Notes: a model not told the origin generated them from the sequence alone. Positions 5,532 through 55,037 are shown, numbered from the stretch's first letter. The stretch is 64,000 bases of DNA from Haloterrigena gelatinilytica (GCF_013342145.1 NZ_JABUQZ010000001.1:3906001-3970000), one strand, 5' to 3'. Made by a program: numbers and translations.

Positions 5532-5678
5532 CGAACGGGCATCTCTCTGCAGTCTCGACGATCGGATCGCAGGTCTCCGCGGTCTCGTTCGCGAACTCGG
5601 TCTCGAGGATCCGAGCTACCCGGCCATCGGGAACCCGTTGCGCTCCCCAGAAATCACTGGCTGAGAACCGTCCCACAC

Positions 5679-5686
5679 TTATATCG
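5679..5686 (+). promoter_or_regulatory. TATA box of the tRNA gene
   Basis: TTATATCG in an otherwise GC-rich gap, centred about 37 nt before the 5' end of the tRNA-Gly. It predicts a transcription start near 5708 and a leader of about 10 nt, as usual for archaeal tRNA genes. Confidence 0.6.
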
Positions 5687-5718
5687 AGAACGCCGGTGTC
5701 GTATCGGATGCAGTCGGC

Positions 5719-5788
5719 GTGGCGGTGGTGTAGCGTAACACACGCCCGTTCCACGGGTGTGCCGAAGGTTCGAATCCTTCCCGTCACA
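5719..5788 (+). tRNA. tRNA-Gly (anticodon UCC), atypical
   Basis: A cloverleaf folds by hand. The acceptor stem GTGGCGG/CCGTCAC has seven pairs, one of them G-U. The D stem is GTGT/ACAC. The anticodon stem CGCCC/GGGTG encloses a 7-nt loop with U33, anticodon TCC and A37. A perfect 5-bp T stem GAAGG/CCTTC encloses TTCGAAT, and the discriminator base is A. A TATA box lies upstream. Oddities: the D loop has only one G where the conserved G18-G19 pair is expected, loop positions 32 and 38 are G and C and could pair, and the second acceptor pair is U-A. No intron. It is either a genuine but divergent minor tRNA or a decaying copy. Confidence 0.65.
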
Positions 5789-5925
5789 TCCTTCTCGGTC
5801 CGTTACCCGTCCAGTGCCGACGCTTTCACAGGCGGTACAAGGCGGATGCCCCGGCCCTTGGGGCCGGGGAGGAAGCCGACACCCGATGACACAAACCACG
5901 TCACGATGGCAGGCCGACCCCCTAA

Positions 5926-6503
5926 ACGTATAATAACCACTGGCGTCGGGAGTACGAGAAACGCCGTGCATCGCTCCAGCAGTGTGGCTCTCGCCGCGCC
6001 CACGAAAACATCGAGAGCGTTGGGCAGAAAGAGTACGGACGGTTCGGGATATACCTGCATACGGTGGCGAACGAACTCATTGAGGAAGCCGTCGAGAACG
6101 ACTGTTCGCACATCGTGTTCGAGGACTTGACCTACATTCGGGAGAACATTCCCGAGGCGACGTGGCAACACATCTGGGCGTTCCGACGACTCCACGAGTA
6201 CGTCGAATACAAGGCCGAAGAACACGACATCGAAGCCGTACAGGTTGACCCTCAAAACACGTCAAAGCATTGCTCAACGTGTGGTTTACCCACGACGACA
6301 ATCGCCACCAAGAGTCGTTCGAGTGTCAGCAGTGCGGGTACGAGAACCACGCCGACTACAACGCTGCGAAGAACATCGGTTTGCAGTATCTCCGTCGTCG
6401 GCAAAACGCAGACGATGGAGGCGCACCCGTAGATGTGCGCTTGAATCGCGGGACGCTGAACGTGAGCGGGGAGTACGTCCCCCCTGCCTCTGTTGAGGCA
6501 TAG
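5926..6503 (+). pseudogene. tnpB: tnpB remnant: N-terminal half missing and frameshifted
   Basis: The in-frame stretch from about 5926 encodes a TnpB C-terminal half: [14 protein letters not shown], then [11 protein letters not shown] (the RuvC-II acidic segment), then [14 protein letters not shown]. One T is missing near 6283 (TGTGGTTTACC where a third T is needed), so reading moves to another frame for [20 protein letters not shown] and DYNAAKNIG (zinc ribbon and RuvC-III). About 190 of the usual 400 or so residues remain; the RuvC-I aspartate is gone. It cannot encode an active nuclease. The stop at 6501 lies inside a TGCCTC/GAGGCA hairpin. Confidence 0.8.
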
Positions 6504-6545
6504 AACGGGAGTCCACGCGAAAGCCTCGGTTGACCCCGAGGCGAT
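6460..6545 (+). ncRNA. possible omega-RNA-like 3' end of the tnpB element
   Basis: Three hairpins follow one another: GGGGA/TCCCC around 6468-6482, TGCCTC/GAGGCA at 6485-6500 and GCCTCGG/CCGAGGC at 6523-6542. In active TnpB elements the overlap of the tnpB 3' end with the right end encodes the guide (omega) RNA scaffold. Here the nuclease is broken, so this would be a relic. Inferred from position and hairpins only. Confidence 0.35.
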
Positions 6546-7007
6546 TTACACCGACAGGACCGGCTGGCTCGCGTAGGAGAGCACGTACTCGGCGGCCCGC
6601 TCGAGGACTTCGGCCGACGCGGTTTCGGTGACCGGCTCCCTCGGAAGGACGATGAAGTCGGCGTCGACGGCGTCGGCGGTATCGAGGACGACGTTGCCGG
6701 GGTGGCGCGTCTTGCGCGTCTGCGAGAAGCCGTCGTCGACGGAGGTCACGAGCGGGACGTCCGCCTCGTCCGCGATGATCCCGATGTCCGCGAAGAATCC
6801 CTGCGTGTCCTCCGCGACGGCGTCCTCCTCGAGGGTGCCGGCGTTCATCCCCTGCACGACGCCCCTGCCGAGGACGTACAGGGCGTGGACTTCGGCGTCG
6901 TAGCGCTCGGCGACGGCGACGGCGTACTCGACGGCGGTGGCGGACTCCTCGCTCCCGTCGACCGGCGCGAGTACGGTGTCGACGGTAACCGGCTCACTGG
7001 CGACCAT
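6546..7007 (-). CDS. universal stress protein
   Basis: A 153-residue Usp protein. It opens VTVDTVLAPVDGSEESATAV, with the family's V-D-G-S nucleotide loop, has a central region on a GMNAGTLEED helix, and ends EVLERAAEYVLSYASQPVLSV with the final beta strand. The canonical G-x2-G-x9-G-(S/T) ATP motif is not obvious (replaced by LPREPVTETASAEV), suggesting a non-ATP-binding member. Divergent from another Usp gene at 7110. Its stop abuts the right end of a decayed tnpB element, but the C-terminus looks intact. Confidence 0.88.
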   Translation of the reverse strand: MVASEPVTVDTVLAPVDGSEESATAVEYAVAVAERYDAEVHALYVLGRGVVQGMNAGTLEEDAVAEDTQGFFADIGIIADEADVPLVTSVDDGFSQTRKTRHPGNVVLDTADAVDADFIVLPREPVTETASAEVLERAAEYVLSYASQPVLSV

Positions 7008-7109
7008 ACGCGGTGGTGTGTCCCCCGTCACAAAAAAGCCACCCCACGACCGCCCGCTCGCGGGGCGGAGCCGCCGGTGTTTAAGCCGTCTCGGCCGTAA
7101 CCCCCGTGC

Positions 7110-7707: not shown

Positions 7708-8979
7708 ATGGACGAAGAACTCATCGACAGCGGCGACCTCCCGCTCGCCCGCAAGTCCGTGCTCCCGGGAACCGGTTTCTTCCTGCCCGACGCGCTCGAG
7801 GAGGACGTCGAGGACGAGCAGGCCGCGGCCGCCCTCGAGGGCGCTCGGGTCGCCGTCATCGCAGACCCCGACGCGGACGGGTTGGCCTGCGTCGCCCTGC
7901 TCCGCGAGGCCTACGACGACGTGCGGAACGTCCCGGAACCCGCCGAGGAGGACGAGAGCGACGGCGACGCGCCGACCGAGGCGACGGACGCGGCCGACGC
8001 CGTCGACGACGCCGACGAAGCGGCGGCGGGACTCGCCGACGAGACCGTCGATCCGCTCGAGGACCCCGAGCCCACGCCCCACGAGGTAGCCCTGATTCCC
8101 GCCAGCCCCCACGACGTCGAGGACGCGCTGGCCCGCGTCGCCGAGTTCGGCGACGAGGGGATCGACCTCTTCGTCTGCGATCTCGCGCCGGACAGATACG
8201 AGTACGTCGAGGAAGAACTCGATGCGGCGCTCGAGACCGCCGACCGCGTCTCGTGGTACGACCACCACCAGTGGAACGACGACGTCGCCCAAGCGGTCCG
8301 CGACGCCGGTGTCGACCTCGTCGTCGGCGACTCCGACGAGGAGTGTTCGGCCGACGTCGTCTACCGGTCGCTCGAGTACGACTTCTCGCCGATGTACGAG
8401 GAACTGGCCGCCGTGACCCGGGACCACGACCTCTGGCTGCGCGAGGACCCGCGCAGCGACGATCTGGCGGACTACGCCTACTGGACCGATCCGGCGGAGT
8501 ACGTCGAGGTCGTCCGCGAGTACGGCGTCGACCTCCCCGAGTGGGTCCGGGAGTTCCTCACCGAGCGCCGCGAGGAGAAGGAGGCGCTGATCGACCGGGC
8601 GCTGGCCCGCGCGGAGTTCCGCGAAATCGGCGGCTACACGGTCGGCGTCACCTACGGCCGCTGTTCGCAAAACGAGGTCGCCGAGGGGATGCGCGAGCAG
8701 GGCGCCGACGCCTCAGTCGTCGTCAAACCCGCCGGCTCCGCCTCGATCCGCGGCACCGACGCGTTCGACCGCTGCCACGAGGTCGCGGGGAAGGTAAACG
8801 GCGGGGGCCACCCCAAGGCCGCCGGCTGCAAACCCGACATCTACGACGACATGCTCGACTACGCGAACCACTGGACGTCCCGCGGCGCCGTGACGAAGCA
8901 GGTCATTCTCGACGCGTTCCGCGAAGTCGTCGCGGACGAGGCCGAAGACGAGAACAGCACGGACACCGACGAAACGTAA
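7708..8979 (+). CDS. DHH family phosphoesterase (RecJ-like)
   Basis: A 423-residue DHH/DHHA1 protein. Motif I is VAVIADPDADGLACVALL; an acidic low-complexity insert (about residues 75-110) follows; then LFVCDLAPD, the signature DHH in VSWYDHHQWNDD, and RDHDLWLREDPRSDDLAD. The C-terminal DHHA1 substrate-binding domain carries GGGHPKAAGC. Such archaeal proteins are related to RecJ/GAN nucleases and nanoRNA/cyclic dinucleotide phosphodiesterases; which activity applies is not evident. Start at the ATG after a TATA-free GC-rich gap. Confidence 0.9.
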   Translation: MDEELIDSGDLPLARKSVLPGTGFFLPDALEEDVEDEQAAAALEGARVAVIADPDADGLACVALLREAYDDVRNVPEPAEEDESDGDAPTEATDAADAVDDADEAAAGLADETVDPLEDPEPTPHEVALIPASPHDVEDALARVAEFGDEGIDLFVCDLAPDRYEYVEEELDAALETADRVSWYDHHQWNDDVAQAVRDAGVDLVVGDSDEECSADVVYRSLEYDFSPMYEELAAVTRDHDLWLREDPRSDDLADYAYWTDPAEYVEVVREYGVDLPEWVREFLTERREEKEALIDRALARAEFREIGGYTVGVTYGRCSQNEVAEGMREQGADASVVVKPAGSASIRGTDAFDRCHEVAGKVNGGGHPKAAGCKPDIYDDMLDYANHWTSRGAVTKQVILDAFREVVADEAEDENSTDTDET

Positions 8980-9261
8980 GCGGTCCTTTTCCGTTCCACT
9001 GCCGAGTCGAGCAATACCGACACCGCCCGCTCTCCGGCGTCGTCCCGCGCATACCCATCAGTTGGTGGGAATCCAAATCAGTTAGGAGTCACCGCTAATG
9101 GAGAGAGTGTGGTCTGCAAAACTGCGGCAGGAAGTGACTTCATAACCACCACTGGCCGTGTCGAACCGAGCTCCTGCATCCTGCCCGCACCCCCGTCAAC
9201 TGTCACTTCAGTTCCGACTCCCACTCCTATCCATCCGTTCGTTCCGACGACCGCGGAACCG

Positions 9262-9957
9262 TCACCGTTGGGAGAGCGCGTACCGCATCACGAGCTGCAG
9301 GACGTGAACGAAGACGCCGGCGACGGCGACGTAGACGCCGATCGTCTGGAGCGCGACCGAGGCGTCGCGATTGTCCCGAACTCGCCAGATCTCGTACCCC
9401 AGCCGGAGCAGGAATCCGAGGAAGATCAGGACGAACCCGGCCAGCAGGACGGGCTGGACGAATGTGCCGATCAGGATCGCGACGAGCCCGCCGATGAAGG
9501 CGTAACCCGCGTACGTCCCCCAGCTCTCGAACGTCTTCGAGCGCGCGTAGACGTAGCCGGAGATCACCGCCGTCATGAGCGCGACGACGACCGCCGTTAT
9601 CCCGAGAATAGTCAGCTGACTCTCCCGCGGAGCGAAACGGAGCACGCCCGCGCCGAAGATCCCGAACGCGAGTTGCAGGAGTACCATTCCGACGAATGCG
9701 ATGCCCATATCCCCGCCCTCGACGCCTCGCTGGGCGACGTACTGGCCGGCCATGATCGCCGCGCCGTAGACGACCGCGCCGATGATCGGGGCCGCGAACA
9801 GGTACTCGTTGACCTGCGCCAGCGGCGTCGTCGCGACGGCGTACATCACCGCGACGTTGATCGCCATCAGGACGCTCGCGCCGCCGATCACCTGCACCTC
9901 GCGACTCGAGAGACCGAATCCCCGTCCGGTCTCGTGTGGCGTTTCGAACGAACTCAT
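9262..9957 (-). CDS. Bax inhibitor-1/YccA-like seven-TM membrane protein
   Basis: A 231-residue integral membrane protein with about seven hydrophobic helices. The pattern fits the BI-1/YccA (TMBIM) family: a central segment YARSKTFESWGTYAGYAFIG resembles the family loop and helix, and the last helix region ASVALQTIGVYVAVAGVFVH matches the usual 'L-x3-Y-x-D/A-x2-N/G-x-F' pattern. These proteins are implicated in ion leak and membrane homeostasis. Convergent with the DHH gene; the 282-nt gap between them holds nothing I recognise. Confidence 0.7.
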   Translation of the reverse strand: MSSFETPHETGRGFGLSSREVQVIGGASVLMAINVAVMYAVATTPLAQVNEYLFAAPIIGAVVYGAAIMAGQYVAQRGVEGGDMGIAFVGMVLLQLAFGIFGAGVLRFAPRESQLTILGITAVVVALMTAVISGYVYARSKTFESWGTYAGYAFIGGLVAILIGTFVQPVLLAGFVLIFLGFLLRLGYEIWRVRDNRDASVALQTIGVYVAVAGVFVHVLQLVMRYALSQR

Positions 9958-10033
9958 AGCCCGACCCTAGCCGTGCGGGCCGCAAAAGCCTGCGCCCTAC
10001 CGCTGAAACCCGCGTGCGGGCCGTCCGCCGGGG

Positions 10034-10468
10034 TCAGGCGTCGGCGTCGGGAACGTTCCACTTGTCCGAGTACGCCGTCCCGCACGTACACTTCGCGTAC
10101 GCGTGCACGACGTCGCCCTCGGCGTAGATGCCGCCGACGTCCTCGTTCTGTTCCTCCGCGAAGGCGAAGACGAACTGCACCGCGTGGTCCTCGTCGGTCG
10201 GCGCCTCCGGACACTGGCCGCCGGTGAGGTCGTCCTCGATGATTCCCTCGAGTTCCATCGCGGACTTGGCGAACTGCATCGCCTGCGTGCCGGTCGCCGC
10301 CTCGAAGGCGTTGCGGCCGCGCTCGCCGTCGACGACGATCAGGACGCCGTCCTCGACGCGCTCGCCGAACTCAGCTAAGCGGTCGTCGGAGACGTACGAG
10401 TCGGCCAGAAACAGTGCGACGTCGTCGGGCCGCTCGCCGGCCAGAAACTCCTCGCGTGGGTCGGTCAT
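10034..10468 (-). CDS. conserved haloarchaeal protein (DUF5807-type)
   Basis: A 144-residue acidic soluble protein: MTDPREEFLAGERPDDVALF at the start, a stretch ERVEDGVLIVVDGERGR, and a C-terminal segment VHAYAKCTCGTAYSDKWNVP with a C-x-C pair. I believe this is the haloarchaeal family named DUF5807 (recall, not a search); no function is known. Start at 10468 is the first ATG that excludes a basic extension unlike haloarchaeal proteins. Confidence 0.78.
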   Translation of the reverse strand: MTDPREEFLAGERPDDVALFLADSYVSDDRLAEFGERVEDGVLIVVDGERGRNAFEAATGTQAMQFAKSAMELEGIIEDDLTGGQCPEAPTDEDHAVQFVFAFAEEQNEDVGGIYAEGDVVHAYAKCTCGTAYSDKWNVPDADA

Positions 10469-10663
10469 AGACCGGGATTGTCGCTCGAGGTGGAAAAAGG
10501 ACGCGTCATCGGGGTGGCCCTGGGATCGCAGGCTATGGGTCCAACTCCGATTTGGTCGCCGCGATAACTGCGGGAAACGGATCTCATCCACGGCCGTCGA
10601 TCGACGGCCGTCGGTGGCGGCCCAGACGACGAAAAAGACTCGGGGGATCCAGCTACGACGTAG

Positions 10664-11365
10664 TCAGCGCTCGTCGGACTCGTTCGTGCCGGGAGCAGTG
10701 CTCTCGTTCTCGAGGTCGTCGCCGTTCTCGACGTTCTTCCCTTCCTCTTCGAGGTCGGAGTTACCGTTCTCGAGATCCTCCTCGTATACCTTCGAGTTCA
10801 TGATGTTGCTCCAGATCATCACCTCGACCATATCGAGCTCGTTAGCGGCCGATTCGTTCTCGGCGGTCTCGTTATCGGCCGAGTCGTCAGGCGTCTCGTT
10901 GCCGGCCGACGTATTCCCGCCGGTATTGCCGCTATCGGCCGGGGTGAGCCACTCGGAATTGATTCCCCAGCCGAGCGCCTGTTCGTCGAAGGGGTTCGCG
11001 ATCTCGGAGTAGAGGAAGGAAATATCCGAGCCGCGGTCGATCAGCGCCTGCCTGTAGACCTCGTAGATGATCCGGATCTCCTCGTTAGATTCGTCGACCG
11101 TTTCCGCGTCTGATCGATAGGTCAGGTAGAGTTCGCCGTCGTCTTCGAGGAGTTCGTCGACCGCGATCCCGTTCTCCTCGAGGAAGTAGTAGAACTCGCC
11201 CGGCGATCCCTCCCGGGGTTCGGAGGGTTCGACGGGTTCGATTACGGTCGCCGACGAGGAGCCGCCGACCAGCGAGCCGAGACAGCCGGCGGTCGCGACC
11301 GTCGCGACGCTCCCGGCGGTCGCGCCGAGGAATCGTCGTCTGGACGGGGAGGACTCGTGTTGCAT
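10664..11365 (-). CDS. Tat-exported lipoprotein of unknown function
   Basis: A 233-residue secreted protein. The N-terminus MQHESSPSRRRFLGATAG carries a twin-arginine motif (RRRFLG) followed by a hydrophobic stretch and a lipobox TAGC, so it should be exported folded and lipid-anchored. The globular part (about residues 45-150) contains SPGEFYYFLEENGI and IRIIYEVYRQALID; a Gly/Asn/Asp/Glu-rich low-complexity linker and an acidic tail with many potential N-glycosylation sites (NTSA, NETP, NESA) follow. No family recognised. Confidence 0.82.
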   Translation of the reverse strand: MQHESSPSRRRFLGATAGSVATVATAGCLGSLVGGSSSATVIEPVEPSEPREGSPGEFYYFLEENGIAVDELLEDDGELYLTYRSDAETVDESNEEIRIIYEVYRQALIDRGSDISFLYSEIANPFDEQALGWGINSEWLTPADSGNTGGNTSAGNETPDDSADNETAENESAANELDMVEVMIWSNIMNSKVYEEDLENGNSDLEEEGKNVENGDDLENESTAPGTNESDER

Positions 11366-11661
11366 ACCGTTCAGTCGCAACGGCACCCGCAAAAAGACGC
11401 GGACGATATCGAACACTGAGTCGTGCCTCGCAGTGCACTCGGTTGCCATGTGAGTCAGCTACTGTAGTACGTAGCACCCACGAACCGAGCGGCCGTATTG
11501 AATCGTTGCCGTTGGACGCAGTACTGTGCGAATCCGTCCGCAAGAACCGAATTGGACCGCGCTCCACTATGGAGACGAGAGCGGCGGACTACGATGACCG
11601 CCGAAAATGAAACACGCCGTCTGCTGTATTCCCTGTAATGACCGTCTCGAGCCGACGGAGG

Positions 11662-36286: not shown

Positions 36287-37426
36287 TTACGGCCACTCGA
36301 CGGTTTCGTCGGATCCGGCCTCGATCTCGACGGTCCCGCTGTCGACGGGGATCCCGCTTTGATTGTAGACCTCGACCGTGACGTCGTACGTATTTCCGTC
36401 GACTCCGCCCTGTCGCTGGCCCTCAGCCGGGTAGACGACCGTTCCGGTCGGAGCGTCGTCGCTCGATTTCGTCCGATCTGCCCAGTCCCGTTCCGTGTTA
36501 TCGAACTCGACCTGTACCTCGTCGAACTCCTCGAGTCGGGTTACCTCGTAGTCGACGGTAAACCGGTTGTTCGTGTATTGCTCGTCGTTCGTGACGGAGA
36601 ATCCGACGAGTTTCGGATCATCCTCGCTCCCGAGATCGTCGCCCGGCGGATTCTCACCGTCGGCGGTGGTCGTCGTCTCCGTATACAGTTCCGTGACCTC
36701 ACCCGACTGGTCGTAGACGCGAAACCGGAACTCGTAGGTATCGCCATCGGCGCCGCCGTCGCCCCCGCCTCCCCGCGGATATGAAACGGACCCCTCTTTC
36801 GTCGTCTGAACGTACGTCTCTTTCCCGATGTAGCCTGCATCGAGGTTCTCGACCTCGATTTCGATCCGGTTGAAGTCGGGAAGCCGCCGCACCCGATAGG
36901 AGATCGTAAACGCCGCGTTCCCGTTTCGCGTGCGATCGCGAATCTGTTCGCTGACGACCGGTGGGTCCGTGACCGTGACCGCCCTCGTCAGCGTGATCTC
37001 CACCGCGTCCCCCGAGGCGGTGACCTCGAACGGCAGCGCCGCCTCCCCGGTCGAACTGTCGCGGTCGACGGAGACAGCGACCGATCGGGTCGCTCCGTCG
37101 GCGAGTGCGAATCCGGTGTCCGAAAGCTCTCCCTGCCCGGGATTGGACAGTGAGATGGAGACCTCGAGGAGTCCGTCGGTATTGTTCGTCAGGTCGACGA
37201 GGTGTTGGTCGTCGATGCCGGGGCGGACCGCGTCGGTCCGCTGGAGGCCGAGCAACGCGCTATCGTCGTCGCTAGTGGCGAGGTGTGTGAGTCGGCCCGC
37301 ACTGACCTGCGAAAACGCGCCCGTGTCGCTGCGGATCGCGACTCCGCCGGCGATAAGCGCGCCGCCGGCGAGAAACGAGCGTCTCGTCGGTCCACTCCTC
37401 GATCGTCTGCGTCGGTTTCGCCCCAT
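36287..37426 (-). CDS. Tat-exported protein with two Ig-like repeats
   Basis: A 379-residue secreted protein. The basic N-terminus with GPTRRSFLAGGALIAGG is a twin-arginine signal; cleavage is likely near VSA (residues 41-43). Residues about 44-150 resemble the TasA/DUF1102-like proteins below (SDDDSALLGLQRTD). Residues 157-250 and 271-368 are two diverged copies of one beta-rich domain: FTISYRVRRLPDFNRIEIEV versus FTVDYEVTRLEEFDEVQVEF, and GGADGDTYEFRFRVYDQSG versus GGVDGNTYDVTVEVYNQSG. Probable surface or extracellular protein; no known family name. Confidence 0.8.
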   Translation of the reverse strand: MGRNRRRRSRSGPTRRSFLAGGALIAGGVAIRSDTGAFSQVSAGRLTHLATSDDDSALLGLQRTDAVRPGIDDQHLVDLTNNTDGLLEVSISLSNPGQGELSDTGFALADGATRSVAVSVDRDSSTGEAALPFEVTASGDAVEITLTRAVTVTDPPVVSEQIRDRTRNGNAAFTISYRVRRLPDFNRIEIEVENLDAGYIGKETYVQTTKEGSVSYPRGGGGDGGADGDTYEFRFRVYDQSGEVTELYTETTTTADGENPPGDDLGSEDDPKLVGFSVTNDEQYTNNRFTVDYEVTRLEEFDEVQVEFDNTERDWADRTKSSDDAPTGTVVYPAEGQRQGGVDGNTYDVTVEVYNQSGIPVDSGTVEIEAGSDETVEWP

Positions 37427-45970: not shown

Positions 45971-46894
45971 ATGCCACCGGCAGGACACGAAAACGCCGGC
46001 TACCGCCGCCTGTTCGACCGCGACGGCCTGACCTTCGGCGCCGGCTTCCCGTTGACGGGAGCGAACCGTTCGACCCCCGATATCGAGTCCGAACTGCGAC
46101 TCGCCGAGCACGCCGAGCGGGTCGGCTTCGACGGCCTCTGGGCGCGGGACGTTCCGACCTACTGGCCGAAGTTCGGCGACGCCGGCCAGACGTTCGACAC
46201 GTGGCCGTGGCTCTCCCACGTCGCGGCCCGCACCGACGACGTCGCGCTCGGCACCTCGAGTATCGTCCTCACGCTGCGCCACCCGATCCACGTCGCCAAG
46301 TCCGCCGCGACCGTCGACCGGCTCTCGGACGGCCGGCTCGTCCTCGGCGTCGCCTCCGGCGACCGCGACCCCGAGTACCCCGCCTTCGGCGTCGACCGCG
46401 AGGAGCGGGGCCGGGCGTTTCGCGAACGGTTCGAGGCCGTCCGCACAGTCTGGCGGGAGGACTTTCCGACCGTCGAAGGAGAGTGGGGCTCCCTAGAGGG
46501 CGACCTTGAGGTCGTCCCCGAGCCCACGACCGAGACGATCCCGCTCCTCCCGACGGGCAACGCCCGTCAGTCCCGCGAGTGGATCGCCGAGCACGGCGAC
46601 GGCTGGTTATTCTATCACCTCCCGGAACGCACGCTGGAGGAGTACCTCGTCGAGTGGCGCGAGTCGGCCGGCGAGAAACCGTTCGCCATCGCCGTCCGCG
46701 TCGAGTTCGCCGACGATCCGACGGCCGACGCCGAACCGCTGCACCTCGGCTTTCGGGCCGGCGTCGAGTGGTTCCGGGATTACTTCCGGCGACTCGAGGA
46801 GTACGGCCTCGACCACGCCATCATCGGGTTCGAAAACGAGGATCGCGAGGCGGCGCTGTCGACGTTCGCCGACGAGATCATGGCGACGCTGTAG
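45971..46894 (+). CDS. luciferase-like (LLM class) flavin-dependent oxidoreductase
   Basis: A 307-residue bacterial luciferase-family TIM barrel: LTFGAGFPLTGANRSTPDIE, VGFDGLWARDVPTYWPKFGD, HPIHVAKSAATVDRLSDGRL and LVLGVASGDRD are the flavin/F420-binding landmarks. In archaea many such proteins use F420; the substrate is unknown. Monocistronic; a 160-nt gap separates it from aconitase. Confidence 0.88.
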   Translation: MPPAGHENAGYRRLFDRDGLTFGAGFPLTGANRSTPDIESELRLAEHAERVGFDGLWARDVPTYWPKFGDAGQTFDTWPWLSHVAARTDDVALGTSSIVLTLRHPIHVAKSAATVDRLSDGRLVLGVASGDRDPEYPAFGVDREERGRAFRERFEAVRTVWREDFPTVEGEWGSLEGDLEVVPEPTTETIPLLPTGNARQSREWIAEHGDGWLFYHLPERTLEEYLVEWRESAGEKPFAIAVRVEFADDPTADAEPLHLGFRAGVEWFRDYFRRLEEYGLDHAIIGFENEDREAALSTFADEIMATL

Positions 46895-46927
46895 CTTCCG
46901 GATCCGCAGTCGCGACGTAGCGGTCGA

Positions 46928-47857
46928 TCACGGGCGGTCCCGTGTCGCCTCGGTGACGGCGCTGAATCCGGCGTCGAACAGTTCGACCGTCGCACCCGTC
47001 GGACTACCGGGTTGACCGCCCGGACTCGCCGGTCCGCCGAGTTCCGCGAGTACGAGTTCGACGGCGGCTCCGTCGAGCGCCAGCGGGTTCGCGAGCGCGA
47101 CGGTGAGTCGGTTCGGCTCCAGCGTCTCGATCGTCGCCGGACGGTCGGCGCCGTCGACAGTGACCGAGACCGACGGCCCGTCCGCGTCGGTGAAGTCGAT
47201 CGCGCCGGCGGTCTCGGCGTCGCGGTAATCGAGTCGGAGCGCCTCGAGGCCGTGCGTCGTGGTGTCGACGCCCTCCAGTAGCCACCGGTGTTCGAAGACG
47301 CCGCCGCCTCGCTGGGACACCGACAGCAGCGCCCGTTCGACCGAAACGCCGGGAACCGAAAGCGAGAGGTCGCGCTCGGCGTCGACCCGCGTCTCCGCGC
47401 CCGTCGCCGTGACGTCGACGGTTCCGGTTATCGTCGAGCCGACCGACGATCCGATCGCTGCCGGCGTCGGCTCGACCGTAATCTCCGCGAGGCGGTCGCC
47501 CGGGTCCAGCGGATCGCCCGCGTCACCGCCGACGAGCAGTCCGTCTCCGTCGACGGCCGCTGCCTCGTCGGCCGTCCGAAGCCGAAACTGATCGGACGCG
47601 AGGGTGAGCGCGATAGGCGCGGAGAGCCCGTTGACGACGGAGAACGTCGCGGGCGACGGCCGGGGGCCGTCTTCGAACAGGGTACCGCCGGCCTCGACGC
47701 CGTCCTCGGTCAGTCCCAGGTAGGCGGCGGCATCGCCGGCGGCGTCGACGACCGCGTCTCGCCGGGCCGCCGATCGCGAGAGGCCGAGTGTCTCGACGGC
47801 AAGGGTTCCGCTCGAGGCGGCCATCAACAGCAGCGCTGCGCGTCTGGTTCGCTTCAT
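46928..47857 (-). CDS. secreted/membrane-anchored TasA-like protein of the export locus
   Basis: A 309-residue exported protein. N-terminus MKRTRRAALLLMAASSGTLA is a signal peptide with an RR pair. The mature start, about residue 33, reads RDAVVDAAGDAAAYLGLTED, the same 'D-A-x-A-Y-L-G/R-L' element as in the DUF1102-type proteins at 48997 and 49552. The rest is beta-rich (TFSVVNGLSAPIALTLASDQ, ITVEPTPAAIGSSVGSTITG). It begins 1 nt after the stop of the winged-helix gene (47859), so the two are coupled. Confidence 0.72.
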   Translation of the reverse strand: MKRTRRAALLLMAASSGTLAVETLGLSRSAARRDAVVDAAGDAAAYLGLTEDGVEAGGTLFEDGPRPSPATFSVVNGLSAPIALTLASDQFRLRTADEAAAVDGDGLLVGGDAGDPLDPGDRLAEITVEPTPAAIGSSVGSTITGTVDVTATGAETRVDAERDLSLSVPGVSVERALLSVSQRGGGVFEHRWLLEGVDTTTHGLEALRLDYRDAETAGAIDFTDADGPSVSVTVDGADRPATIETLEPNRLTVALANPLALDGAAVELVLAELGGPASPGGQPGSPTGATVELFDAGFSAVTEATRDRP

Positions 47858-47858
47858 C

Positions 47859-48482
47859 TCATCGCCCCCCTTCCGTTCGGTCCCGGTACTCGAGTTCCAC
47901 GGCCGGCGGTTCGTCGGCGATCCCGAGCCGGTTGCGCCGCGCGTAGTAGCGGTGTGCGAGCGCGGAGACGCCGAAGGCGACGACGACGAACACGCCCCAC
48001 GCGTACGACGGGAGGTCGGCGAACGGCGGGAAGCCGGCGACGGTCGCCCCGAGCAACAGCGTGGCCACCGCCGTCAGTCCCAGATAGTAGTCGCTCCACG
48101 GGATCTCTCGTCCGCGAACGACGTCCATGTAGATCTCGACGTTCTCGAGCGCCGGGGTGGGTTCGACGACCCCCCGATCGCGGTCGAACTCGACGACGCC
48201 GGCCTTATCCAGCTTCGGTAGATGCGACTGCTGGAGCGCCGTATAGACTCGCTTTCGATCGGTGCTCGAGACCTCCTCGTAGGCGAGTCCGTCCTCCGCC
48301 GCGGCGATCTCCTGCGAGAGGTCGCCGATGTCGATCGTCTCCGCTTCGTCCATCAGCGTGTGAAGGATGTGTCGTCGTCGTCGGTTCGACAGGAGCTCGA
48401 AGAGTTCGTCTTCGGTCAATTCGTCTCGGTTTCGTCGCGGGACGTTCCGGTCCCGAGTCTGTTCCGCGTGGCATCCCCCCAT
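47859..48482 (-). CDS. winged-helix DNA-binding protein with C-terminal membrane helices (DUF7344-like)
   Basis: A 207-residue protein. Residues about 20-110 form a winged helix: TEDELFELLSNRRRRHILHT, then DIGDLSQEIAAAEDGLAYEE, then RKRVYTALQQSHLPKLDKAG with VEFDRDRGVVE as the wing. Two transmembrane helices follow (YLGLTAVATLLLGATVAGFP, YAWGVFVVVAFGVSALAHRY). This is the haloarchaeal DUF7344-type arrangement often next to secreted protein loci. It is divergent from the DUF1102 genes and is the obvious candidate for their regulator. Confidence 0.82.
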   Translation of the reverse strand: MGGCHAEQTRDRNVPRRNRDELTEDELFELLSNRRRRHILHTLMDEAETIDIGDLSQEIAAAEDGLAYEEVSSTDRKRVYTALQQSHLPKLDKAGVVEFDRDRGVVEPTPALENVEIYMDVVRGREIPWSDYYLGLTAVATLLLGATVAGFPPFADLPSYAWGVFVVVAFGVSALAHRYYARRNRLGIADEPPAVELEYRDRTEGGR

Positions 48483-48996
48483 TCAATCGGACGTAGGACG
48501 CGTCCGGAAATAAAACTATTGAAATCCTGAACTTCACTAATTAAATTATATTGGAGTAGATATATTTGTTCCCGTGATAAGCTTCGATAGTCCTCCGATC
48601 GACGGTCACAGACCCGCTTTCGGGAGTTTCCCGGAACAGTCGTCGTCGCTCGATTCTCTCGCGATGCGGGGTCAGTCACCGGTTGACCGAGAGTCAATCG
48701 GATCGAGACCGCCTCCGAATCGTACTCAGGGGTCGATTGACCGAAAGCCACCGATGCGCCGATCGCAGTCTACGGACCGCTGACCCGCACGCGACTCGAG
48801 TCAACCGCCCCCATGCGACGCAGCACGTTCGCTCCGCCGCTCGTTGATAGAAGGTAAACCAGTAGCAGAATTAACTCCACGACTGTATTACAATATTCCC
48901 TGCTATCCATCGCTGAATCGTGGTTCCCGCGAGAAGCGGGGCGACGGGGTCTCGCGGACGACCGTCCGCGAGGTTCCGCTCACCACACCACCAACC
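48483..48996. promoter_or_regulatory. divergent control region of the export locus
   Basis: 514 nt between the winged-helix gene and the first DUF1102 gene. The first 90 nt (48505-48575) are strongly AT-rich with several TATA-like stretches (AATAAAACTATTG, TTAAATTATATTGG). Two similar elements, TTGACCGAGAG near 48683 and TTGACCGAAAG near 48737, occur about 50 nt apart and could be operators. A further AT-rich stretch (ACTGTATTACAATATTCC, 48882-48899) precedes the DUF1102 start by about 100 nt. No gene with haloarchaeal composition found. Confidence 0.5.
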
Positions 48997-49536
48997 ATGC
49001 AACGACGCAAATTCGTCATCGGAATGGGCGCACTGGCATCCGGAACCGCCGCCGCGATCGGGACGGGGGCGTTCTCGAGCGTGAGCGCGAATCGTGACAT
49101 CGACGTCGAAGTCGCCGACGACGCTTCGGCCTACCTGCGACTCGAGGGTACCGGCGGCGACAACGCGGACTACGTCACCGACGACGGGAACGGCGGTACG
49201 CTGACGATCGACCTCAGTCCGAGCAACGACGGCGTCGCGGGCGGCGGCGAGGGGGTCAACCCCGATGCGGTCACGCAGATCGGGAACCTGTTCGACATCG
49301 AGAACCAGGGGACGCAGGAAGTCGACGTCACCGTGGCCAAACACGGCGACAACGCCGACCTCGTCGCGTTCTACCCGGACGGCGAGGCCTACGACGGCGA
49401 CTCGCTGACCGACAGCGCGGTCACGCTCGGCGCCGGCGAGAGCACGACGATCTGTCTCGAAATCGATACCGAAGACAGCGGCCTCGGCGACGGCGACGAA
49501 CTGCTCGACTCGGTGACCTTCAGCGCGACCGCGTAA
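48997..49536 (+). CDS. DUF1102/TasA-like secreted protein
   Basis: A 179-residue exported protein. The N-terminus MQRRKFVIGMGALASGTAAA carries an RR-like signal with a hydrophobic stretch, then GTGAFSSVSANRDIDVEVAD with likely cleavage after VSA. The mature part is beta-rich (DDASAYLRLEGTGGDNADYV, IENQGTQEVDVTVAKHGDN). This matches DUF1102 proteins related to TasA-type beta-sandwich subunits. First gene of the operon with 49552, 50152, 50394 (signal peptidase) and 51558. Confidence 0.82.
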   Translation: MQRRKFVIGMGALASGTAAAIGTGAFSSVSANRDIDVEVADDASAYLRLEGTGGDNADYVTDDGNGGTLTIDLSPSNDGVAGGGEGVNPDAVTQIGNLFDIENQGTQEVDVTVAKHGDNADLVAFYPDGEAYDGDSLTDSAVTLGAGESTTICLEIDTEDSGLGDGDELLDSVTFSATA

Positions 49537-49551
49537 CTGGGTGGATAACAG

Positions 49552-50148
49552 ATGGAACGACGCAACTTCGTCCTGAGTATCGGTACGCTCGCGGCGGGCG
49601 GCGGACTCGCCCTCGGTACCGGCGCGTTCAGCAGCGTCCGGGCCGAGCGCGACGTCGCCGTCACCGTCTCCGAGGACGCCAGCGCGTACCTCGGCGTCCA
49701 GCCCGGCGACGGGCCGAACGGCAATTACGCGGACACGACCGACAGCGACGCGCTCGCGATCACCCTGACCGGCGACAACGACAACGTCGGTGACAGCATC
49801 GCCGGCGGCCAGGGTCTGAACGCCAACGCGGTCACGGGAATCGAGGACATCTTCCAGATCCAGAACCAGGGCACTCAGGAGGTCGAACTCCGGGTCACGC
49901 CGCTGGCGTTCGGCGACGTGGACTGGCAGGACTTCGACGGCGTGCTGGGCGTCCTGCTCGTGCCCCAGGCCGGCGAAGTCGGGATCGACCTCGAGTGGCC
50001 GCCGTGGGAGAGCAACTTCGTCTCGATCTCGACGCTGTCGCCCGGCGAGGAGATCGAGTTCAGTCTGGCGGCGTTCGCCCTCCCGGAAACGGCGGTGGAC
50101 TCGGTCGCCGTCAACGACGAGATCGAAATCACCGCGGAGGAGGTCTAA
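49552..50148 (+). CDS. DUF1102/TasA-like secreted protein, second copy
   Basis: A 198-residue paralogue 15 nt downstream of the first. N-terminus MERRNFVLSIGTLAAGGGLA, then GTGAFSSVRAERDVAVTVSE; cleavage likely after VRA. Mature part contains EDASAYLGVQPGDGPNGNYA and IFQIQNQGTQEVELRVTPLA, aligned with the first copy, but the C-terminal third is different (GIDLEWPPWESNFVSISTLS). Two distinct subunits of one structure are likely. Confidence 0.82.
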   Translation: MERRNFVLSIGTLAAGGGLALGTGAFSSVRAERDVAVTVSEDASAYLGVQPGDGPNGNYADTTDSDALAITLTGDNDNVGDSIAGGQGLNANAVTGIEDIFQIQNQGTQEVELRVTPLAFGDVDWQDFDGVLGVLLVPQAGEVGIDLEWPPWESNFVSISTLSPGEEIEFSLAAFALPETAVDSVAVNDEIEITAEEV

Positions 50149-50151
50149 GAG

Positions 50152-50277
50152 ATGACGGACACGACACCCACGCTCGACGACTACGAGACGGTAGCGGGTA
50201 TCGAATTCGACCTATCCGACGAGGAACTCGACCGGGAGACGATCAACGCGGAGCTAGAGCGACTCTTCTCCGCGTAG
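50152..50277 (+). CDS. small acidic protein in the export operon
   Basis: A 41-residue ORF beginning MTDTTPTLDDYETVAGIEFD and ending with RETINAELERLFSA. It starts 3 nt after the second DUF1102 stop and has the acidic composition of a haloarchaeal protein. No hydrophobic segment. Role unknown; its position between the secreted subunits and their signal peptidase suggests part of the same system, perhaps an assembly or regulatory factor. Confidence 0.6.
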   Translation: MTDTTPTLDDYETVAGIEFDLSDEELDRETINAELERLFSA

Positions 50278-50364
50278 CGCCGCGACGCCGATTTTCGCCG
50301 TAACGAGCCGCGTTCGACTGTCACCGATACCTCGAACACATGTTATAAATCGAAATATACAAGT

Positions 50365-50378
50365 AATTTTATAAAATT
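50365..50378 (+). promoter_or_regulatory. palindromic TATA element upstream of the signal peptidase gene
   Basis: AATTTTATAAAATT, a perfect 14-nt palindrome in an AT-rich stretch, centred 22-23 nt before the ATG at 50394. It is the TATA box of a near-leaderless promoter, giving the signal peptidase a start independent of the genes ahead of it. Confidence 0.6.
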
Positions 50379-50393
50379 AGTTCAGGTGTACGA

Positions 50394-51554
50394 ATGATTC
50401 ACCGGGGGGTGACGCGGGTGTTCCAGGGGCTCGTACTCGCGAGTATTCTCGCCCTGTTCGCGGGGCAGATACTCGGACAGCCGATCCTGCTGGGGTTCGT
50501 CGAGACCGGCAGCATGGAGCCGACTATCGAGACCGGCCACGGGTTCGTCGCGGTTCCGGCCGTCGTGACGGACGATCCGGAGCCCGGCGACGTGATCGTC
50601 TTCGAGGCCGAGGCGATCGACGGCGGCGGGCTGACGACTCACCGGGTGGTCGAGGAGACCGAGCGGGGGTACGTCACGCGGGGCGACGCCAACCCGGTTA
50701 CGGATCAGGACTCGGGGGAACCGCCCGTTCAGGACGGACAGATCGTCGCGAGCGCCTGGCGACCCACGGGCGAGGTCGTCACGATACCCCATCTCGGGAC
50801 CGCCGTGATGACGGTCGGCGACGTCGTCGAGTCCACCCAGAGTCGACTGTCGGTCGCGTTCGGGCTCGGATCGATCCGGGGAACGTCGGGGCTGGCGTAT
50901 CTGGGTCTCGGGCTATCGGGAGCCCTCTACGCCATCGAGACGGTCCGCGAGCGCCGCAGCGCGTCCGACGAGTCGCGGTTGGGCGGCGACGACGGGACGG
51001 CGCTCGATCCGCGACTCCTCTGTGGCGCCTTCGCGCTGCTGGTCGTCGTCGCCGCCGCGGGTGCGATGCTCGTCCCCGCCGGGACCCAGTCGTACGGCGT
51101 CGTCAGCGCGGAGTTCGACTCCGAGCAGGCGCTGGTGATCGAACGGGGAACCACCGAGACGGTGCCGTACGTCGTGGCCAACGACGGGGCCGTCCCCGTC
51201 GTCTCGTACGTCGAAACGGAGAGCGACCGCGTCGCGGTCGACGAGGGACCCGCGACCGTCGGTCCGCGGGACGACGCCGAAGTCCCCCTGTCGATCTCGG
51301 CGCCCGCCGAGACCGGCCACTACCCGGCCTACGTCACCGAGTACCGGTACCTGCACGTGCTCCCGCTGCCGGTGATCGACGCCCTCCACGACGTCCATCC
51401 GTGGTCGCCCGTCGTCGTCATCGTCTCGCTGCTCGGCGGGCTCACGTACGGTGTCGGCCGTCGGCTCTGTGGCCCCCGCGATCCGCGCTCGCGGCGGGAC
51501 GCGGCTCGCGACCGGCAGACGAAGACGCGCTCGCTCATCCGGAGACGCTACTGA
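50394..51554 (+). CDS. signal peptidase I, SipW/archaeal type (S26B)
   Basis: A 386-residue membrane-bound signal peptidase. Residues 1-25 form a membrane helix. The catalytic Ser region ETGSMEPTIETGHGFVAVPA, the TTHRVVEETERGYVTRGDAN segment, and the D-N-P-V-T-D-type region (GDANPVTDQDSGEPPVQDG) match S26B (His instead of Lys as general base). A second membrane segment is near residues 215-240 and the C-terminus has a third (SPVVVIVSLLGGLTYGVG). The DUF1102 neighbours have A-x-A-like sites and are the likely substrates. Confidence 0.9.
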   Translation: MIHRGVTRVFQGLVLASILALFAGQILGQPILLGFVETGSMEPTIETGHGFVAVPAVVTDDPEPGDVIVFEAEAIDGGGLTTHRVVEETERGYVTRGDANPVTDQDSGEPPVQDGQIVASAWRPTGEVVTIPHLGTAVMTVGDVVESTQSRLSVAFGLGSIRGTSGLAYLGLGLSGALYAIETVRERRSASDESRLGGDDGTALDPRLLCGAFALLVVVAAAGAMLVPAGTQSYGVVSAEFDSEQALVIERGTTETVPYVVANDGAVPVVSYVETESDRVAVDEGPATVGPRDDAEVPLSISAPAETGHYPAYVTEYRYLHVLPLPVIDALHDVHPWSPVVVIVSLLGGLTYGVGRRLCGPRDPRSRRDAARDRQTKTRSLIRRRY

Positions 51555-51557
51555 CAC

Positions 51558-53132
51558 ATGGTATCGCTACTGACGGACGCCGACGGCGACGAAACGGGGC
51601 GGGAGCGACGGCTGCGGCTTCGCGCCCTGTTCGCGGAGTATCGGACGGTGCTACTGATCGCGTTCGTCGTCCTGCTCGGCCTCGGCGCGTGGCTGAGCTA
51701 CGGCGCCTACGCCACCTCGGAGACGGCGACCGAGCAACAGCTCGAGCACCGCTGGACGGCGACGGGGGAGTTCTCTCACGGTGCCGTCGTCACCGAGTCC
51801 AACCCCGTCCATCCCGAGGGGACGCGCCTCGAGAACGAGTCGCTGTACTACGAGGGGATCGCGCCGACGGTCGACGGCGAGTTCGCCGGCGGATACGACG
51901 CCGGCGGCGGCGAGGACGTCCGCGTCTCGGTCGCGGTCGACCTCGTCTATCGATCGGTCGACCCGAACGGCGACGGCGTCTACTGGAGCCGACGAACGGA
52001 ACTCGAGTCGGCGACGGCGACGGACGTCGCGCCGGGCGAGGCGGTCACCGCGTCGTTCGCCGTCAACGTCACGGCGGTCAGGGAGTCGATCGCCGAGATC
52101 GAGCGGGAGGTCGGGACCGGCCCCGGCGAGACCGAGATCGTCCTCGACCTCGAGCGGACGGTCGACGGCCGGATCGACGGCGAGCGCCGCTCGGCGAACC
52201 ACAGCTACGAGGTGCCGATCACGACGGACGGGGAGGCGTACCGCCTCGAGGCCGACGGCTCGTACGACGAACCACGAGAGGAGCACGAGTCCGTCGAGGT
52301 CCCCGTCTCGGCGGGGCCGCTTCGATCCGTCGGCGGACCCCTGTTGCTGGGGCTGGGCGCGACCGGTATCGGTGCCGTGGGAGTTGTAACGCGCCGGTTC
52401 CCGGAGCTGACGGAGACCGAGCGCGAGTGGCTGGCCTACCGGGCCGACCGCTCGGAGTTCGAGGAGGTGATCACGACGGTCAGTCTACCCGCGTCGGGAC
52501 TCGCAGAGCCTCGTGCGACGGTCGACTCGCTGGCGGCGCTCGCGCGCCTCGGAATCGATCTCGAGGCGGCGGTGCTCTTCGATTCGGACGAGAACCGCTA
52601 CGTCGTCCGCGGCGACGGCGTCCGATACGTCTTCGAGCCGCCGCGGCCGCCGACCGGGGACGATCTGCTCGCCCCCGTGACGATGGGGACTGATTCGGCG
52701 GCAGACGACGATACCGACACCGGCGGCGAGGGGATCGCAGTCGGCGAGACCGACGGATCCGACGCGTCGGCGACCGAATCCGATACCGGGTCCGCGCCGG
52801 TGACTGTTTCCGACGGCCGCGACGCGGACTCCGACCGATCGGCGCGTAGCGAGACGGCCGAGGTCGCTGTCGAACCGACTGCTCCCGCCGTCGAATCGGC
52901 GACGAAAGCGCCCCGCGGCCCGTCGAGCGAGACGAGCCGCGAGCCGCCGCTCGAGTCGTCGTCGGAGTCGTCGGAGCCGGCGTCCGACTCGACTGCCGGT
53001 ATCGACGACGAGGACCTGCTCGCACTCGCCGGACTCGAGCCCAGGGACCTTTCGGGGCCCCGCCTGTTCGAGTCGACGGGAGACGGCGACGAGGAGCGGG
53101 CGGATCGATCCGAGGGCGGGCCCGATCACTGA
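51558..53132 (+). CDS. DUF5305 domain membrane protein
   Basis: A 524-residue protein beginning 3 nt after the signal peptidase stop. It has one N-terminal helix (TVLLIAFVVLLGLGAWLSYG), an extracytoplasmic region (residues about 55-255) with ATGEFSHGAVVTESNPVHPE and VDLVYRSVDPNGDGVYWSRR, and a second helix (GGPLLLGLGATGIGAVGVVT) near 258-280. The rest is cytosolic, with a folded segment and a long acidic Ser/Thr-rich tail from about 375. DUF5305 is a haloarchaeal family usually found with signal peptidases (from memory). Function unknown. Confidence 0.85.
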   Translation: MVSLLTDADGDETGRERRLRLRALFAEYRTVLLIAFVVLLGLGAWLSYGAYATSETATEQQLEHRWTATGEFSHGAVVTESNPVHPEGTRLENESLYYEGIAPTVDGEFAGGYDAGGGEDVRVSVAVDLVYRSVDPNGDGVYWSRRTELESATATDVAPGEAVTASFAVNVTAVRESIAEIEREVGTGPGETEIVLDLERTVDGRIDGERRSANHSYEVPITTDGEAYRLEADGSYDEPREEHESVEVPVSAGPLRSVGGPLLLGLGATGIGAVGVVTRRFPELTETEREWLAYRADRSEFEEVITTVSLPASGLAEPRATVDSLAALARLGIDLEAAVLFDSDENRYVVRGDGVRYVFEPPRPPTGDDLLAPVTMGTDSAADDDTDTGGEGIAVGETDGSDASATESDTGSAPVTVSDGRDADSDRSARSETAEVAVEPTAPAVESATKAPRGPSSETSREPPLESSSESSEPASDSTAGIDDEDLLALAGLEPRDLSGPRLFESTGDGDEERADRSEGGPDH

Positions 53133-53157
53133 CGGGACGGTCGGGGCGGCCGTCGGC

Positions 53158-53559
53158 TCAGTCCTCGCCGTCCGCGCGATCGCGAAGCTGCCGCTTCTGC
53201 CGGCGTTCGGTCACGTGATCGACGCCGTCGGCCAGTTCCTCGCGGACCTCGGTCTCGAAGGCGTCGACCTCCGCTACGAACTCGTCGGAGAACTCCTCGA
53301 CGAGTTCGAAGGTCCACTGGTCGCTGACCGCGCCGGCCGGGAGGTGGTCGTCCCTGAGGGCGTCGGCCCACTCCTCGTGGCCGGCCTCGCGGAGGGCGTC
53401 CTCGGCGTCGCCCATTCGGTCCATCGCGTGGCCCAGCTCGTGGTGGAACTCGAGGAGGGTCCCGTAGGCTCGGTGGACGTACTCGATCCCGAGCTGGAGT
53501 TCGTGCAGCGCGTCCGCTTCGACGTCGCTCAACTCGAGGTCGTCCGGGTCGCGTTCCAT
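53158..53559 (-). CDS. conserved hypothetical helical protein
   Basis: A 133-residue acidic helical protein: MERDPDDLELSDVEADALHE then LQLGIEYVHRAYGTLLEFHH, and a C-terminal KRQ/RDRADGED tail. The whole sequence is predicted helical, with His residues in LEFHHELGHAMDR that could bind metal (ferritin or hemerythrin-like), but no convincing family can be named. Convergent with the DUF5305 gene and divergent from the Mrr-like gene. Confidence 0.7.
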   Translation of the reverse strand: MERDPDDLELSDVEADALHELQLGIEYVHRAYGTLLEFHHELGHAMDRMGDAEDALREAGHEEWADALRDDHLPAGAVSDQWTFELVEEFSDEFVAEVDAFETEVREELADGVDHVTERRQKRQLRDRADGED

Positions 53560-53675
53560 ACCGGTCGGACGCCGACCGCGAGGAAAGCCCTTGGGCCAAA
53601 CAGCGTCCGATTCTCGCGGCCGATACCGGAGCCGCAACACTCTCGGCGGTCGACTCGAGAGGAGTCGTGAACGCG

Positions 53676-55037
53676 ATGGCGATACTCGACGACCTCTCGG
53701 GCTACGAGTTCGAGGACCTGATGGAGGACGTGTTTCGACACTGCGGCTACGAGAACGTCCGCCAGTCGCGGCGGACGGCAGACGAGGGACGGGACATCCT
53801 GATGGAGGAAGTCGTCGACGGCCGCCGCCGGGCGGTCGTCGTCGAGTGCAAGCACACGGGGACCGTCAGCCGGCCGGTCATCCAGAAACTCCACTCGGCG
53901 GTCGCGACCTACGACTACGACGGGCCGGTCCGCGGGACGGTCGTGACGACCGGTCGGTTCACCGAGCCCGCACGCGAGTACGCCGCGAACCTGGGGTCGA
54001 ACCGGGAGGGCGGCGTCGAACTCCTCGACGGACGGGACCTCCGGGAGATCGGCGCGGAGATCGGTCTGGATCTCTACAACGGTCGGATCGAGATCCTCTG
54101 CGAGGAAGCGCTCCGGCCGACCCACCCCACCGCCGGTCGAGACGCGCCGGTCTTCGAGGCCGTCCGCGAAATCGAGAACCTCGAGGCCGCGACGATTCCG
54201 ACGCCCGAGACGACGGTCGCGCTCGAGCCGGTGGTCACCGTCCGCGCGACGACCGACGCGACGTTCGAGACCTCCGTCGGCGTCATCCACCGGATCGACG
54301 AGGCGACCGACCTCGCGATCCGCGCCGACCGCGACGAGCCGCGGGCCGCGACCGGCGACGTTCGCGACCTCGCCGCCAACCGCTCGGCGTCCCGTATCGA
54401 CCTCGAGGCGGCCGACCTCGAGTCGACCTTCGACGGCGTCGAGCGCCGCCGGTTCGGACAAACTGAGACCGAGTACAAGGAGTGGGCCGTCGACCGCCTC
54501 CGGCAGGCGCAGACGACGACGGTCCACTACACGGGCGACAACAACGTCGACTACGAGAAGACCTGCACGCCCAAGCGGTCGGACATCTCGGTCCGCGATA
54601 TCGACCCCGTCTACGTCCCGCACGTCCGGTCTCGCCTCTCGCTGGGCGAGTACGACTACCGGTACGCCTACCGCGCCGCCGGCCCCTCGCGGGCGACCAC
54701 GCGAAACGACTTCCGGGAGTGCGTCCACTGCGAGACGGCGGGCGCGAGCGAGACCTACACCTACTGCGACAACTGCGGGAGCGTCAACTGCGAGGAGCAC
54801 ACGAAAACGGAGCGACTCGAGGGCGACCCCGTCTGTACCGGCTGTGCCGTCACCGAACGGTTCGCGCTCGAGACGAAGTACTTCTACGACGAGGCGAACC
54901 TCGAGGCCTTCCGCGAGGAGTACGCGGCCATGGCGATCCACGAGAAGGCCACGGAGAACGTCCCGTTGGCCGTCGGAAGCGTCCTCTGTGCGCTGCTCGC
55001 GACGTTCTTCGTCGCGAGTTCGATCGGGCTCGTCTAG
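53676..55037 (+). CDS. Mrr-like restriction endonuclease with Zn-binding and membrane segment
   Basis: A 453-residue protein (a GTG three codons upstream is an alternative start). Residues 1-100 form an Mrr/PD-(D/E)XK nuclease: LSGYEFEDLMEDVFRHCGYE, TADEGRDILMEE (Asp40) and AVVVECKHTGTVSRP (Glu57-x-Lys59). Middle part is unclassified (LEAATIPTPETTVALEPVVT; TFETSVGVIHRIDEATDLAI). Around residue 350 there is a cysteine-rich segment (CVHCETAGASETYTYCDNC...CEEH...CTGC) likely to bind zinc. The C-terminus has one membrane helix (PLAVGSVLCALLATFFVASS). Probable membrane-anchored nuclease; its target is not known. Confidence 0.82.
   Translation: MAILDDLSGYEFEDLMEDVFRHCGYENVRQSRRTADEGRDILMEEVVDGRRRAVVVECKHTGTVSRPVIQKLHSAVATYDYDGPVRGTVVTTGRFTEPAREYAANLGSNREGGVELLDGRDLREIGAEIGLDLYNGRIEILCEEALRPTHPTAGRDAPVFEAVREIENLEAATIPTPETTVALEPVVTVRATTDATFETSVGVIHRIDEATDLAIRADRDEPRAATGDVRDLAANRSASRIDLEAADLESTFDGVERRRFGQTETEYKEWAVDRLRQAQTTTVHYTGDNNVDYEKTCTPKRSDISVRDIDPVYVPHVRSRLSLGEYDYRYAYRAAGPSRATTRNDFRECVHCETAGASETYTYCDNCGSVNCEEHTKTERLEGDPVCTGCAVTERFALETKYFYDEANLEAFREEYAAMAIHEKATENVPLAVGSVLCALLATFFVASSIGLV

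Follow-up and report, generated by a model that had tools for sequence, protein, structure and literature searches.

A probable Taf-type pilus locus with two pilins and a conserved 41-residue protein in the haloarchaeon Haloterrigena gelatinilytica

Results

Two divergent operons encode secreted proteins, a signal peptidase and membrane proteins

The window that we analyzed, a 64,000-nucleotide stretch of the genome of Haloterrigena gelatinilytica (GCF_013342145.1, NZ_JABUQZ010000001.1:3906001-3970000), contains seven genes between positions 46928 and 53132. These are organized as two divergent operons that flank a 514-bp intergenic region, with B followed by A on the minus strand and with C, D, E, F and G on the plus strand (Table 1); all seven are present where an initial annotation of the sequence had placed them. 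The likely start of the pilin gene C is the ATG at position 48997. An Rfam search of positions 46000-54000 found nothing.

Table 1 Genes and candidate regulatory elements of the locus, numbered from the first letter of the window
Feature	Position	Strand	Description
A	46928-47857	-	309 aa, secreted; third subunit
B	47859-48482	-	207 aa; DUF7344 winged helix (PF24035, E 2.9e-29) and two C-terminal transmembrane segments
Candidate operator palindrome, GTTGAC-CGAGA-GTCAAT	48682-48698	no strand	Between the divergent operons
Conserved ACTGTATTACAATA element, candidate core promoter of the pilin operon	48882-48895	+	
C, Taf-type pilin 1	48997-49536	+	179 aa; DUF1102; twin-arginine signal peptide
D, Taf-type pilin 2	49552-50148	+	198 aa; TafE 1.7e-19; twin-arginine signal peptide
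E	50152-50277	+	41 aa, acidic, conserved, without signal peptide
F, S26B signal peptidase	50394-51554	+	386 aa; TIGR02228 above cut-off
G, DUF5305 membrane protein	51558-53132	+	524 aa; PF17231, E 7.6e-55

The product of F exceeds the cut-off of TIGR02228 (53.3 bits versus 51.85) and carries the catalytic set of an S26B peptidase (Ser40, His83 and Asp98/Asp104/Asp106), which is invariant in five homologues; the initial assignment of F as an S26B signal peptidase is thereby borne out. F also has a strong transmembrane segment at residues 209-227 and a C-terminal extension resembling an extracellular Ig-like domain. The host genome contains four signal peptidase genes, two of which are of the Taf type, and only the copy at a second locus, designated L005, aligns with F. 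(Outside the window, at G000:C1:3521149-3522724, lie two tandem, shorter signal peptidase genes with frames of ~330 aa, presumably the housekeeping pair.) The DUF5305 membrane protein and the winged-helix membrane protein had likewise been recognized correctly. In particular, G has two transmembrane segments and a long acidic tail, and the transmembrane segments of B span residues 133-151 and 157-175. Only two DUF5305 genes are found in the host genome, both in Taf-type loci, and none of the 14 reference genomes of a control search contained one; G is a candidate assembly or anchoring platform.

Relatives of the locus were found through the peptidase across the Halobacteria, which yielded 80 loci, 57 of them with full flanks. 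Among these 57, a pilin is present in 53, DUF5305 in 55 and a DUF7344 gene in 54, and all four partners (pilin, DUF5305, DUF7344 and an A-type gene) are kept in 48. The DUF5305 gene directly follows that of the signal peptidase in 51, and the DUF7344 regulator is divergent from the pilin operon in 52. With the set of partners recurring in most of these loci, the arrangement of the genes in the window is not a matter of chance.

C and D are homologous to the subunit of a haloarchaeal pilus

The products of C and D had been described as two DUF1102/TasA-like proteins. C passes the DUF1102 threshold (E 3.4e-9; 37.5 bits versus a cut-off of 22.2), whereas D has no Pfam match; yet a profile comparison (hhalign 100%, E 6e-51) shows D to be a homologue of C, and the description was therefore right in substance. 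Both proteins match by sequence the chain of PDB entry 9p0a, entitled 'Structure of Natrinema sp. J7-2 Tafi pilus' (for C and D, respectively, 1.8e-10 and 1.6e-15 with phmmer, and 1.5e-15 and 5e-18 by profile). In NCBIfam, C matches TafE (2e-19) and TafA (8e-10), and D matches TafE. Of the three fimbrial families TafA, TafC and TafE (NF052520-NF052522), C and D match TafA and TafE in the signal and the N-terminal strand, and C also matches over most of the length of TafE. These matches fall below the equivalog cut-offs (70 bits versus 155 for TafE, and 39 bits versus 190 for TafA), and we regard C and D, by sequence, as homologues of TafA and TafE that are not these equivalogs.

Models of mature C and D, built from 50-55 homologues, reached a mean pLDDT of 72, which is moderate. 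In Foldseek searches the best match for both was 9p0a (1e-3 for C and 4e-5 for D), and the VIA Z scores to 9p0a were 9.2 over 119 residues for C and 8.0 over 136 residues for D; against a noise level of 7-8, the D model is tied at Z 8.0 between 9p0a and the Pyrobaculum bundling pilus (7ueg). Because the models are only moderate and the Z score of D is near noise, the sequence match to 9p0a is the main evidence. Two archaeal pili other than 9p0a that are TasA-related or of the donor-strand type (PMC9674648, PMC9715654) were among the fold matches listed. The Pyrobaculum bundling pilus, which is structurally related to TasA and donor-strand-complemented (PMC9674648), ranked 2-9 (VIA Z 7.7-8.0); it gave no sequence match in PDB searches and comes from a different phylum. 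The thread of Sulfolobus acidocaldarius (PDB 7pnb), a donor-strand filament for which a general signal peptidase I has been proposed (PMC9715654), was a weaker fold match (Z 5.5-6.6), also with no PDB sequence match.

The initial annotation had proposed that predicted structures of C and D be compared with TasA. In the fold searches 9p0a came out best with the TasA-related Pyrobaculum pilus close, and TasA itself was not among the 50 fold matches listed, which does not exclude TasA. The TasA/M73 (camelysin) family gave no Pfam match to C, D or A, and no TasA chain was found in PDB profile searches with the pilins. Since no TasA structure appears among the fold or sequence matches listed, the link to TasA runs through the related archaeal pili.

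C, D and A share a signal and an N-terminal strand

Conservation in C, D and A is highest after the signal, in the stretch FSSVxAxRxVxVxVxxDxxAYLxL. In the monomer models the N-terminal ~17 residues of C and D are of low confidence and largely unpaired, which fits a donor strand. In 9p0a, 188 residues of the 215-aa chain are resolved, as a start at F28, immediately behind GTGA, would give, and this residue count suggests that cleavage occurs there; in C and D the site would be A25/F26. A TATFIND-like rule is passed by 139 of 141 pilins and an RR lies within the first 12 residues in 140 of 141, counts that our choice of start codons, in which RR was preferred, slightly favors. Export of C and D through the twin-arginine translocation (Tat) pathway is likely on the strength of these signals. 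Among the A-type proteins the picture varies (the rule is passed by 44 of 58, and 11 of 58 have no RR), so that Tat may not be universal. We infer that the subunits encoded in the window are processed, polymerized and displayed at the surface. Elsewhere in the window, at 36287-37426 on the minus strand, an orphan gene encodes a secreted protein of 379 aa that has the twin-arginine/GAFSxVxA..R signal and the N-strand module of the pilins (TafC N-terminal match, 5.9e-13); this protein is possibly an extra substrate or adhesin of Taf systems.

The minus-strand gene A had been annotated as encoding a secreted partner. A is secreted, but it is more than a partner, as a profile match identifies it as a third subunit of the pilin family. 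Specifically, the profiles of the A family and of the pilins align over 119 columns, the whole domain (98.3%, E 2.3e-14), and A consists of a pilin-like signal/N-terminal-strand module, a Taf-type domain and a variable C-terminus. The NCBIfam TafC match is confined to the first 56 residues (3.4e-5; 23 bits versus a cut-off of 410). In most related loci the A-type gene adjoins the DUF7344 gene. Pfam found no known domains in 41 A-type proteins, and we found no description of a third subunit family with the common N-terminal strand in the literature searched. Because this strand is common to A, C and D, all three could enter one fibre, and A is a candidate tip, cap or initiator subunit. TasA fibres form by donor-strand exchange and include TapA as a minor accessory component, and a protein that caps or nucleates the filament may also exist in threads (PMC9674648, PMC9715654). 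At locus L030 (10543-11682), the C-terminal part of a reference TafC-type protein resembles, by eye, a LamG/concanavalin-type domain; many long proteins match the TafC model in this region alone.

A 41-residue protein is conserved behind the second pilin

Thirteen orthologues of E lie between D and the peptidase, and one more is fused to D (L038). In ten aligned E sequences P6, L8, Y11, E12, F19, D20, N32, E34, L35, E36, L38 and F39 are invariant, and the mean pS of 0.57 versus a pN of 0.21 indicates purifying selection; the pN/pS values and this conservation led us to reject E as a chance open reading frame. E was found in 24 of 391 haloarchaeal genomes and in 12 of 86 genera, with two of the matches weak, mostly in the family of the host, and it lies directly behind D in distant families too. 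E starts only a few bases from the stop codon of D, and it does so too at two C-D-E modules that have no adjacent signal peptidase gene (L148 in genome G282, 5596-6891, and L149 in genome G196, 5778-7041). E therefore travels with the pilins and not with the peptidase. All D-clade pilins sampled (FastTree) come from E-bearing loci except that of L118, which is without E.

In the window, E is in the same frame as D with one TAA between them, and we considered whether E might be a read-through extension of D; this was rejected, as E of L043 is in another frame with overlapping stop and start. E is probably translationally coupled to D, and the simplest reading of E would be a D-specific partner. 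No description of a 41-aa protein under purifying selection behind a second pilin was found in the literature searched.

The intergenic region contains a locus-specific palindrome

The pattern RTTGACN5GTCAAY has one exact copy in the 4.55-Mb genome, namely the palindrome between the two operons. With up to one mismatch, the pattern has 15 matches versus 8 per strand for a reversed control. In the related loci GTTGAC/GTCAAC, mostly as TTGAC-N5-GTCAA, occurs 3.29 times per kb in the divergent intergenic regions versus 0.57 times per kb in their remaining non-coding DNA (~six-fold), although these are not independent events because the loci are related. In several relatives copies of the palindrome are ~53 bp apart. 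B is plausibly a membrane-tethered regulator of the locus with its own operator, and it is the obvious candidate for binding the palindrome at 48682. A Csa3-like identity of the winged helix of B (PADLOC, 0.0086) was rejected as weak and generic. The literature searched contained no description of the locus palindrome GTTGAC-N5-GTCAAC.

The sequence GTATTACAATA occurs 16 times in the 57 intergenic regions versus 0.0 expected from shuffles. Just downstream of the TATTACAATA element, at ~48920-48945 in the window, there is a conserved inverted repeat, GATCCCCGC-GG-GCGGGGATC (TCCCGCGAGAAGCGGGG in the window), which is also present in L052, L057, L058 and L063 and is a candidate 5' leader hairpin or second operator.

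The host genome contains a second, Tafi-type locus

A gene 100% identical to the 165 available residues of the 9p0a pilin was found in one genome (G159), at locus L162, in which genes for DUF5305, signal peptidase, a CARDB protein and the pilin are divergent from those for a VWA protein, DUF7344 and a secreted protein. Like the window locus, the Natrinema Tafi locus (9p0a was released on 2025-07-23) has a homologous pilin with the same signal/N-strand module, together with a peptidase, DUF5305, DUF7344 and a secreted subunit. It differs in having one pilin, CARDB and VWA, whereas the window locus has two pilins, neither CARDB nor VWA, and in addition E. The closer counterpart of the Natrinema locus in the host genome is not the window locus but L005, which is arranged like L162 and lies ~120 kb from the window locus. 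Both kinds also occur together in genome G159 (L162 and L164). The equivalent core gene set and the presence of the Tafi-type L005 in the host genome identify the window locus as a paralogous Taf-type pilus locus; as a variant of this kind, it has a second pilin and the extra 41-aa protein, lacks CARDB and VWA proteins, and carries a candidate operator of its own.

The Taf reference loci share DUF5305, DUF7344 and the peptidase with the window locus but differ in gene order, the peptidase and DUF5305 lying at opposite ends. The core set is found, differently ordered, in L030, L031, L047 and L048, which score above the curated TafC/TafE thresholds. Beside the Tafi-type pilin of L005, at 8908-11556 on the plus strand, is a gene for a large secreted protein with VWA and DUF7305/ice-binding-like character that has relatives in L037, L044, L045, L162 and L163; this VWA/DUF7305 protein is a candidate tip adhesin.

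Discussion

Our findings make it likely that the locus makes a haloarchaeal surface pilus of the Taf/Tafi type, paralogous to the Natrinema Tafi pilus of known structure. A surface fibre system with its own peptidase, as the initial annotation had suggested, is thus retained, most likely as a donor-strand fibre whose best match is a solved haloarchaeal pilus, but the locus is not a new kind because the fibre type was solved in 2025 and is named in NCBIfam. The parallel to TasA-SipW holds in that secreted beta-sandwich subunits accompany a dedicated SipW-like (S26B) peptidase; the 9p0a matches, however, make the haloarchaeal Tafi/Taf pilus the closest system.

C, D and A could instead be separate beta-sandwich proteins of a surface-protein or matrix secretion locus with a substrate-specific peptidase, none of them forming a polymer. 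Other secreted proteins with the same signal do occur outside such loci, such as the orphan elsewhere in the window, but C and D are close in sequence to a subunit solved as a filament, the donor-strand module is common to all the subunits, and the locus is equivalent to that of the solved pilus; we consider such a non-polymeric system unlikely. That the locus is TasA-SipW proper, an orthologue of the matrix system of Bacillus in which A would correspond to TapA, is very improbable. Although both loci combine a fibre subunit, a minor subunit and a dedicated S26B peptidase, as in tapA-sipW-tasA (PMC9674648), and F does match the SipW model of NCBIfam (E 5e-9), that match reaches 36 bits versus a cut-off of 190, the window signals are twin-arginine, neither the Pfam search with C, D and A nor the PDB profile searches with the pilins gave a TasA match, and there are extra partners, DUF5305 (absent from the reference genomes) and DUF7344. 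Equally improbable is a decayed or silent paralogue of a functional Tafi locus (L005) that makes no fibre of its own, for although the host has that locus as well and some congeners are without the E-bearing version, the frames of the window locus are all intact, the catalytic residues of F are kept, orthologues in Haloterrigena salina are 95-99% identical and E is under purifying selection.

For the pilus that we favor, the following sequence of events can be envisaged. B, or a regulator acting with B, would control both operons through the palindrome. C, D and probably A would be exported by way of their twin-arginine signals, which are evident in the sequence. F would then cleave at GTGA/FSS, a site suggested by the first resolved residue of 9p0a, and so free the N-terminal strand of C, D and A; the strand and the peptidase are seen in the sequence, and the linkage of the genes points to F as the enzyme. 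By homology and from the models, each freed strand would fill the groove of a neighboring beta-sandwich to give a C/D donor-strand fibre, with A as a low-copy end subunit. From their linkage, G and the Ig-like domain of F may together make up a platform in the membrane on which the base of the fibre is held or assembled. More speculatively, E might act on D in the cytoplasm, for instance by aiding its export or folding. A more specific version, to which we give little credence, is that E is a cytoplasmic partner dedicated to D, is synthesized along with it through translational coupling and keeps D assembly-incompetent until Tat export, the conserved xxVEFDLS strand of E possibly serving as a stand-in donor strand. 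If this were true, E would be the first pilin-specific chaperone known to us in archaeal donor-strand pili.

Such a fibre would likely be used in adhesion, cell-cell contact or biofilm formation. Haloarchaea appear commonly to carry TasA/Taf-type donor-strand pili on their surface: at least a TafC-like match is present in 239 of 292 genomes, part of which match only the C-terminal region of TafC. We found no account of the regulation, export or assembly partners of such pili in the literature searched. The locus offers a compact list of parts for them: two pilins, a candidate end subunit, a peptidase, a candidate DUF5305 platform, a candidate operator and a microprotein.
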